Made by a program: the position numbers and the translations under genes. A stretch of 64,000 nt of DNA from Eggerthellaceae bacterium (GTDB taxonomy: Bacteria > Actinomycetota > Coriobacteriia > Coriobacteriales > Eggerthellaceae), in assembly GCA_017459925.1 (NCBI GenBank), contig JAFUCC010000026.1, positions 1 through 64,000 of the forward strand, given 5' to 3'. This document shows, one piece after another, positions 5,995-16,848 of the stretch. Within the stretch, counting starts at the first letter, position 1, and each line of letters opens with the position of its first letter. The notes below the pieces were generated by a model, which ran no database searches, had not been told where the DNA came from, and worked only from the letters and a program-made list of their open reading frames with translations.

Positions 5995-6105
5995 TTTGCA
6001 AATGAGTAGCAGGACGTTCCTGCGACTCATTTTGCAGGGCGCTCCAGCCCTCAGCTTCACCTACGGGAAATGAGTCGCAGGAACGTCCTGCTACTCATTT
6101 GCAAA
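5995..6105. repeat. Family B palindromic element, copy 1
   Basis: Perfect 38-nt inverted repeat (5995-6032 against 6068-6105) around a 35-nt spacer containing CTCCAGCCCT. Each arm is itself nearly palindromic: ATGAGTAGCAGGA, then CGT, then TCCTGCGACTCAT. Two relatives lie at 30050 and 55756. The element is 18 nt after the stop of the upstream minus-strand gene. Confidence 0.85.
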
Positions 6106-6123: not shown

Positions 6124-6462
6124 TTACGCACCGAGAATCAGCGATACGATAGCGATAGCGCCAGAGCAAGCTGACAAGATGGCGATTCCCTGTTTGGTGA
6201 ACAGGTTGTACGGACAACCGAGCATGCTCTCGAGCTTAAGGCTGCAGTACATCTCGCTCGATTCGAGGATGCGCTTCGCCGTTGCCGTCTTCCGCTCTGC
6301 GGCAGGCTTTTCTTGCGCGTGAGCGCGAACGTTATGCACGGCAGGGGCGCTGTTCCGCGTTGGGAACATGATGATCTTCGCATCTTCGGCGGTTTCGGCC
6401 CATCGGGGCATCTTCAATGCGGCGGTTCCGTTCGTGTACGCATTGAAATTTCTCTTGCCCAT
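6124..6462 (-). CDS. SOS-controlled small tail-anchored membrane protein (unknown)
   Basis: 112 residues, no recognised family. The N-terminal 90 residues are basic and soluble; residues 92-112 form one hydrophobic segment running to the C-terminus. The start follows AGGAGG. The promoter is TTGACA, 17 bp, TATTAT, with a LexA box filling its spacer, and the gene is divergent from lexA. In other Gram-positives the gene beside lexA is often an SOS cell-division inhibitor (YneA, DivS), but those have an N-terminal TM and often LysM, which are absent here. A role in the SOS checkpoint is inferred from position only. Confidence 0.75.
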   Translation of the reverse strand: MGKRNFNAYTNGTAALKMPRWAETAEDAKIIMFPTRNSAPAVHNVRAHAQEKPAAERKTATAKRILESSEMYCSLKLESMLGCPYNLFTKQGIAILSACSGAIAIVSLILGA

Positions 6463-6483
6463 TTTTCCTCCTGCACTTGCACA

Positions 6484-6551
6484 GAACCTTTGTTCGTGTG
6501 TATAATAAGCCGAACAAAAGTTCTTGTCAACGAAAAATCAAACATTTGTTC
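6484..6551. promoter_or_regulatory. Three LexA boxes in the lexA divergent promoter
   Basis: GAACCTTTGTTC (6484-6495) and GAACAAAAGTTC (6512-6523) match GAAC-N4-GTTC exactly; AAACATTTGTTC (6540-6551) has one deviation and ends 14 nt before the lexA ATG. Box 2 lies inside the promoter of the 112-residue gene and box 3 overlaps the lexA leader, so both genes should be LexA-repressed. Confidence 0.9.
6502..6530 (-). promoter_or_regulatory. Sigma-A promoter for the SOS membrane protein
   Basis: On the minus strand TTGACA (6525-6530), 17-bp spacer, TATTAT (6502-6507). The spacer contains LexA box 2. One of the best promoters in the window. Confidence 0.8.
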
Positions 6552-6565
6552 TGAAAGGATGAAAC

Positions 6566-7201
6566 ATGGCTGATAAGTTGACGAAGCGCCAGCAAGCTGT
6601 CATGGACAGCATCGAGAAAAGCATTCGCGAAAAGGGCTACGGTCCCACCGTGCGCGAAATCTGCGCAGACTTGGGCCTCTCCTCCCCCTCCACTGTCCAC
6701 GTTCATCTTAAGACGCTCGAGCAGAAGGGCTACATTGTCCGCGACCCGTTGAAGTCCCGTTCAATCTCTCTGCCGACTCAGCATGCCGATGAGGCGCCCT
6801 CCAATGTCATCAGGCCCAGCTTCAGCAAAATCGTCGACGTGCCGCTCGTCGGCAACGTGGCGGCTGGCGAGCCCATTCTTGCCGAGGAGAACATCACCGA
6901 CACCATCTCGCTTCCGACCGACATCGTCGGCGACGCCCCGTCGTTCATGCTGTCAGTTCGCGGAGAATCCATGATCGAGGCAGGCATCAACGACGGCGAC
7001 TACGTGGTCGTGAAAGAGCAGCCCGTTGCCAATAACGGCGACATCGTCGTCGCCATCATCGAAGACGGCGCCACAGTGAAGCGCTTTTACAAGGAACGCG
7101 ACCATATTCGCTTGCAGCCGGAAAACTCAGCCATGAGCCCCATCATCACGACCGATTGCACCATCGCGGGAAAGGTCGTCGCCGTGTTCCGCAGAATTTA
7201 G
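6566..7201 (+). CDS. lexA: SOS repressor LexA
   Basis: 211 residues. N-terminal winged helix-turn-helix (about 1-65, with PTVREICADLGLSSPSTV), then a peptidase S24 domain. The autocleavage site is Ala100-Gly101, the catalytic Ser135 lies in RGESMIEAG and Lys172 in GATVKRFY; all are intact. The ATG at 6566 follows GAAAGGA. RecA filaments trigger cleavage; recA in this window carries a matching box. The stop overlaps that of convergent hflX. Confidence 0.97.
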   Translation: MADKLTKRQQAVMDSIEKSIREKGYGPTVREICADLGLSSPSTVHVHLKTLEQKGYIVRDPLKSRSISLPTQHADEAPSNVIRPSFSKIVDVPLVGNVAAGEPILAEENITDTISLPTDIVGDAPSFMLSVRGESMIEAGINDGDYVVVKEQPVANNGDIVVAIIEDGATVKRFYKERDHIRLQPENSAMSPIITTDCTIAGKVVAVFRRI

Positions 7202-15730: not shown

Positions 15731-16789
15731 TTAGCGTTTCTTCGTGGGCTTTTCTACGGGAGTGATGGCATCTGCCTCTTCCGCTGAGCGAGAAATGATG
15801 GGAATTTCAAAGTGCTCACGAACTTTCGTCTCAAGCTCTCTGAGCAAATCGGGATTGTCGTGAAGGGTCTGCTTCGCAGCCTCGCGACCTTGGCCGAGAC
15901 GCTCTTCGCCATAGGTGTACCAAGCACCGCTCTTCTTTGCGACGCCGGCTTCAACGGCCATGTCGATGACGCAGCCTTCCTTCGAGATGCCCTGACCGTA
16001 CATGAGGTCGAACTCAGCCTGCCTGAACGGGGGCGCCACCTTGTTCTTTACCACCTTCGCACGCACGCGGTTGCCCACGACCTCGCCGTTGAGCTTTATG
16101 GAATCGATTCTACGGATATCGATACGCACGCTCGAGAAGAACTTGAGCGCACGGCCGCCCGTCGTCGTTTCAGGGTTGCCGAACATGATGCCGATCTTCT
16201 CGCGGAGCTGGTTGATGAATATGCATGTCGTGTTCGACTTGGAAAGCGAGCCGGCAAGCTTGCGGAGCGCTTGCGACATGAGCCTTGCCTGAAGCCCGAC
16301 AGTCGTATCGCCAATTTCGCCTTCGATTTCCGCGCGTGGGACAAGCGCCGCAACGGAGTCGATGACGATGCAATCGATTGCGCCGGAACGGACGAGCATA
16401 TCGCAGATTTCGAGCGCTTGCTCTCCCGTGTCGGGCTGCGAGATAAGCACCTCGTCGATGTCGACGCCAAGGCGAGCTGCGTACACCGGGTCGAGCGCAT
16501 GCTCGGCATCGATGAATGCGACGATGCCGCCTAAAGCCTGCGCTTCTGCGAGAATTTGCAGCGCAAGCGTGGTTTTACCGCTCGATTCAGGGCCGTACAC
16601 CTCGATTATGCGGCCGCGCGGCACACCGCCGATGCCGAGAGCCGCATCGAGGGGCAACGCGCCCGTAGGAATGGCGTCGACCTTCAAGTCGACCCCGGCA
16701 TCTCCGAATTTCATGATGGAGCCTTTGCCGAACTTGCCTTCGATTTGGTCTGTCGTGAGCTTGAGCGATTTCAGTTTTTCTTCGTTCAT
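15731..16789 (-). CDS. recA: Recombinase RecA
   Basis: 352 residues from the ATG at 16789, preceded by AGAAGG; an in-frame start at 16822 overlaps the promoter and is rejected. ssDNA-dependent ATPase for strand exchange and LexA coprotease. [12 protein letters not shown] is the Walker [12 protein letters not shown] and the Walker [11 protein letters not shown] follow, and loop L2 contains the [12 protein letters not shown] segment. Full length. Confidence 0.98.
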
Positions 16790-16820: not shown

Positions 16821-16848
16821 ATTATACCGAACAGATGTTTGCGGTCAA
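16821..16848 (-). promoter_or_regulatory. recA promoter with LexA box in its spacer
   Basis: TTGACC (16843-16848), 16 bp, TATAAT (16821-16826) on the minus strand. The spacer holds AAACATCTGTTC (16829-16840), the same one-off variant of GAAC-N4-GTTC as LexA box 3 at lexA. Confidence 0.85.

Follow-up and report, generated by a model that had tools for sequence, protein, structure and literature searches.

The gene that lies divergently from lexA in this Eggerthellaceae contig raises two questions: whether it encodes a checkpoint protein of the SOS response, and whether such a protein, devoid of the LysM domain of the lexA-linked division inhibitor YneA, can nevertheless be related to it. The window analyzed (the whole stretch of DNA, 64,000 nucleotides long) contains both genes as a divergent pair:

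6124..6462, minus strand: gene of P0001, a tail-anchored 112-aa candidate SOS protein and probable LysM-less YneA relative (ORF, hydropathy, AlphaFold2, dN/dS)
6566..7201, plus strand: lexA (TIGR00498, 7.7e-69)

The P0001 ORF (6124-6462, minus strand) has an ATG start and a good ribosome-binding site. When compared with an 87%-identical orthologue (L012) from a deer-gut Eggerthellaceae genome (L010/L012), dN/dS was 0.096, and we therefore conclude that the ORF is a real coding gene under purifying selection; eleven further pairs of relatives gave values of 0.14-0.58. A scan of genome contigs with P0001 as query returned a single close orthologue. As the family evolves fast, sequence searches find few relatives, and hence its members were gathered by lexA synteny. 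Between the P0001 gene and nrdR (5995-6105) there is also a perfect 38-nt inverted repeat with a 35-nt gap; related sequence occurs at seven places in the genome, which suggests a dispersed palindromic element.

An earlier sequence-only reading of this DNA had placed two perfect and one near-perfect LexA box between lexA and the 112-residue protein, together with a consensus promoter for the small gene, and all of them are found in the intergenic region. They are listed here along with the recA elements of the same window:

6483..6496: LexA box 1, perfect GAACN4GTTC (AGAACCTTTGTTCG), within the spacer of the lexA promoter
6511..6524: LexA box 2, perfect GAACN4GTTC (CGAACAAAAGTTCT), within the spacer of the P0001 promoter
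6539..6552: LexA box 3, near-perfect (CAAACATTTGTTCT), with one half-site AAAC
6502..6530, minus strand: P0001 promoter, TTGACA-N17-TATTAT, 11/12 to consensus
6478..6506, plus strand: lexA promoter, TGCACA-N17-TATAAT, 10/12 to consensus
16828..16841: LexA-type box (CGAACAGATGTTTG) just upstream of the recA start
15983..16771, minus strand: recA domain

The window includes three perfect GAACN4GTTC sites, the shuffle mean being 1.32, and this count is by itself unremarkable. Boxes 1, 2 and 3 follow one another in exact 28-bp steps, and at 62 of the 73 Eggerthellaceae loci that have the gene boxes 1 and 2 are likewise spaced by 28 bp. Because of this recurrence, chance does not account for two perfect boxes at that distance with a third, near-matching one in register. 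Two promoter matches were found, against 0.6 in shuffles, and both promoters overlap at their -10 elements; judging from this layout, LexA bound to box 1 or box 2 would sit between a -35 and a -10 element. The same operator form precedes ruvC (L149) and rarA (L159) elsewhere in the genome. Of the genes so marked, recA and ruvC belong to the classical SOS set, and rarA acts in replication repair. As the form recurs at these three genes, it is sound to take the boxes as the LexA operator of this organism. When a degenerate box pattern was run genome-wide, most other matches were no commoner than in a reversed control, and therefore an isolated box elsewhere cannot on its own be taken as evidence. 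Sites recorded in addition are a LexA-like box that immediately precedes the gene of a radical SAM protein (PF04055), possibly a DNA-repair enzyme (L150, G000:C42:4060-4072), a perfect GAACN4GTTC adjoining a RhuM-family gene (L102, G000:C79:1029-1040) and another one where a 177-aa ORF without Pfam match begins (L106, G000:C223:24210-24221). With the boxes lying in the promoter spacers and the same operator at recA, ruvC and rarA, the SOS control that had been proposed for the small gene almost certainly holds. Pairing LexA with Eggerthella or Coriobacteriia in the open-licence literature retrieved no description of their SOS response.

We then considered the protein itself. Two of its features can be placed on the DNA:

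6127..6195, minus strand: predicted C-terminal TM helix, residues 90-112 (AlphaFold2 helix 90-111; hydropathy)
6415..6429, minus strand: N-terminal motif GTAAL, residues 12-16, common to LysM-bearing relatives from two related families (f2 and f3)

The hydropathy peak corresponds to the last 20 residues, and AlphaFold2 predicts a confident helix at residues 90-111 (block mean pLDDT of 92 and 97 for residues 91-110). The N-terminal half is modeled with low confidence, helices being drawn at 54-68 and 70-77; apart from the TM helix, the predicted fold is made up of coil and helices of low confidence. Only one TM helix is predicted and it ends at residue 111/112, in agreement with the membrane protein with a C-terminal TM segment that had been described from the sequence. 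A charge bias ahead of this helix is the sole sequence hint on orientation, which is otherwise taken by analogy. Neither Pfam nor NCBIfam gave a LysM or any other meaningful domain match for P0001, the NCBIfam YneA model (NF010723) included, and Pfam likewise gave no LysM and no meaningful match for 60 Eggerthellaceae relatives. The absence of LysM noted earlier is thus correct.

To place P0001 within its family, the gene divergent from lexA was read at 90 loci of the Eggerthellaceae (f1). At 73 of them its product is short, with a TM helix forming the extreme C-terminus. A G[T/S/N]xAL motif (GTSAL-type) is present in 67 of these 73 proteins, nearly always at residues 11-14; about 13 residues beyond it the alignment shows IIxFP, followed by a variable linker. 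An LRxGxxxG-like juxtamembrane stretch is found in 46 of the 73 proteins, in 5/7 proteins of other LysM-less families and in 0/34 LysM forms, counts that are descriptive and carry no test, the pattern having been written after the sequences were seen. In the LysM-less clade, conservation lies on the presumed cytoplasmic side. No gene passing the filter was found at the remaining 17 loci, and the gene is therefore dispensable. At two of these (L067 and L097, genus g33) only a TM microprotein of 33-34 aa remains behind the same LexA boxes, a size similar to that of SidA of Caulobacter. Compared with one another, both microproteins show a dN/dS of 0.39 on 33 codons, and they are the most reduced forms, in which little but the TM segment has been kept.

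Among the other Coriobacteriia families sampled, most have a YneA-type protein with TM and LysM in the slot divergent from lexA. Pfam LysM is matched by 31 of the 34 proteins of this kind, and the NCBIfam YneA model by all 34 with E below 0.01, the best of them reaching 59.6 of the 60 bits required. A single search of genomes of the order with the YneA model gave matches in 12/12 of family f3, 10/13 of f2 and 0/13 of f1; in 60 f1 genomes there were two weak matches only, and the genome of P0001 gave none. In view of this near-absence, YneA has not merely moved elsewhere in the Eggerthellaceae. A putative YneA-model match in one genome each of the families f4 and f6 (G377 and G378) counts against the account favored below; that of G378 lies on a contig other than the one bearing lexA.

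The N-terminal segment connects the proteins with and without LysM. A profile of the f1 N-termini matches those of f2 and f3 in register, with 12.6 bits for the best LysM-bearing protein (L117) and 18.2 for the LysM-less L121, the maximum in 1600 shuffles being 4.7 bits. When f1 was aligned by hhalign with the LysM-bearing f2/f3 proteins alone, the probability was 88 and P 3.3e-6, the match being a short one of 28 columns (f1 columns 6-38 with f2/f3 columns 10-37). Among the 17 f2/f3 proteins, 15 have a GTSAL-type motif within residues 1-27, as against a shuffle mean of 0.24. These similarities point to a start, presumably cytoplasmic, common to the LysM-less protein and to the LysM proteins of f2 and f3. 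The motif is present in 0/19 proteins of the outer families, so that continuity with the LysM forms of these families rests on position and architecture; the TM segments are not specific enough to demonstrate homology.

It might be argued that an unrelated SOS membrane protein replaced YneA at lexA, taking over its promoter and its position. P0001 has no LysM, another domain order and no match to the YneA model, and the juxtamembrane motif is missing from all LysM forms, which would favor such a replacement. Nevertheless, the N-terminal segment is common to LysM-bearing proteins at the very same locus, and the LysM-less L121, which has the same start, lies inside family f2; replacement is consequently an unlikely explanation. 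The locus relatives bear also on a second alternative, namely that P0001 is a membrane-depolarising toxin of the TisB/Hok kind which slows growth upon SOS induction. A small protein with a hydrophobic C-terminus and probable SOS control would suit that role, as would the very short TM forms L067 and L097, but P0001, at 112 aa, is no short peptide: its soluble N-terminal part is conserved, and its relatives have LysM and match the YneA model. We regard a toxin of this type as most improbable.

The history of the LysM domain was followed on a tree of LexA, which is one short protein; its bootstrap is not fully settled and some character states were set by eye. Within the order, the families f4, f6, f26, f28 and f29 also have LysM-less proteins with a C-terminal TM at lexA, several of them with GTSAL, and the f5 slot protein has a LysM or LysM-like end. 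Two states of the second tree were assigned by eye: that of L118, with a GSLAL start and a LysM-like end in translation, and that of L122, with a weak LysM. On this tree, presence and absence of LysM amount to two changes: the first falls on the branch leading to f1+f4+f6+f26+f28+f29 (support 97/84), and the second is an isolated one at L121 of f2. L121 stands apart in that it has GTSAL and a C-terminal TM but no LysM, a domain retained by the rest of its family. A first LexA tree had suggested that the loss was special to the Eggerthellaceae, an idea that was dropped when f4, f6 and f26-f29 were added and the loss turned out to be deeper. The distribution agrees with LysM having been lost once, close to the root of a clade to which the Eggerthellaceae belong.

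Taking these data together, descent of P0001 from a lexA-linked YneA is quite probable. Most likely, it is a LysM-less descendant of such a YneA-type protein, tail-anchored and with conserved, presumably cytoplasmic segments. The sequence-only reading was correct as to the facts, but only half so in considering the protein not YneA-like and possibly new. Lack of LysM and of a YneA-model match agrees with the first of these statements, but the slot is a YneA-type one and the N-terminal motif is that of the f2/f3 proteins; according to the LexA tree and the N-terminal motif, the LysM-less form is best read as derived from YneA.

We next compared P0001 with the SOS division inhibitors already characterized. 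YneA of B. subtilis and L. monocytogenes (NF010723) is a small single-TM protein linked to lexA, with LexA boxes in the common region and under SOS control; P0001 is likewise small and lexA-linked with such boxes, its single TM being predicted and its SOS control deduced from its operators. P0001 differs from YneA in having no LysM and no match to the YneA model, and in that the TM segment stands at the extreme C-terminus, after a presumably cytoplasmic part of about 90 residues. SosA of Staphylococcus aureus is lexA-linked and SOS-induced, has a single TM and no LysM, and still inhibits division (PMC6851548). Nevertheless, SosA (77 aa) carries its TM in the N-terminal half and has an extracellular C-terminal part, whereas almost nothing follows the TM of P0001, whose family is conserved on the presumed cytoplasmic side; this comparison is by description, not by sequence. 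SidA and DidA of Caulobacter are cited in PMC13396833 and PMC6051672 as small membrane proteins that are induced by DNA damage and act on FtsW/FtsN; their host belongs to a different phylum and the likeness is by description. Other Actinobacteria have the lexA-linked SOS division inhibitors ChiZ/Rv2719c and DivS, each with one TM, DivS being devoid of LysM (PMC6851548). These also are likened to P0001 by description only, and ChiZ has a LysM that P0001 has not.

In B. subtilis, the TM helix of YneA binds FtsW TM7 and LysM is needed for inhibition; the TM segment without LysM reaches midcell, does not block division and is not toxic (PMC13396833). From this inactivity of the TM segment alone, loss of LysM predicts loss of YneA-type inhibition unless LysM has been replaced. 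P0001 might hence be a relic: having given up division inhibition, it would serve the SOS response at the membrane in some other way, for example by using its cytoplasmic motifs to anchor or modulate a repair, envelope or protease factor. The harmless YneA TM (PMC13396833), the conservation on the presumed cytoplasmic side and the loss of the gene in several lineages would be in keeping with this proposal; a dN/dS of 0.10 and retention in most Eggerthellaceae genera show a kept function, and SosA does inhibit division without LysM (PMC6851548). We consider a relic improbable.

We favor instead a LysM-less YneA descendant that acts as an SOS division inhibitor, a reading to which, as a whole, we assign a probability of about 0.6. 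LexA would repress both lexA and the P0001 gene, and DNA damage, through RecA-driven cleavage of LexA, would derepress both. P0001 would then insert into the membrane with its N-terminus in the cytoplasm, and its TM helix would dock on the septal wall-synthesis complex, at FtsW as for B. subtilis YneA, so that division is held back. Without a LysM to bind the nascent wall, either the TM helix itself or conserved cytoplasmic segments would have to do the inhibiting, the candidates among the latter being the GTSAL motif, IIxFP and the LRxGxxxG-like stretch next to the membrane. For recovery, P0001 would have to be turned over, possibly by an S41 (CtpA-type) protease or by a cytosolic protease. 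An S41 protease is present in this genome; YneA is cleared by CtpA-type proteases (PMC6051672), and the same has been proposed for SosA. A bolder version, which we hold as tentative and rather doubtful, is that a large gut Coriobacteriales clade dropped LysM and moved inhibition to the juxtamembrane cytoplasmic motifs, stopping division from the cytoplasmic face. If true, this would be YneA turned inside-out, a mode not known from YneA, SosA or SidA.

A lexA-linked lineage that has long been kept without LysM puts to the test the B. subtilis model, in which LysM is essential for the septal block by YneA (PMC13396833): either the TM helix together with the cytoplasmic part is enough for inhibition, or the protein has a different function. 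P0001 is, in any case, a candidate DNA-damage checkpoint for the Eggerthellaceae, which are common gut bacteria.
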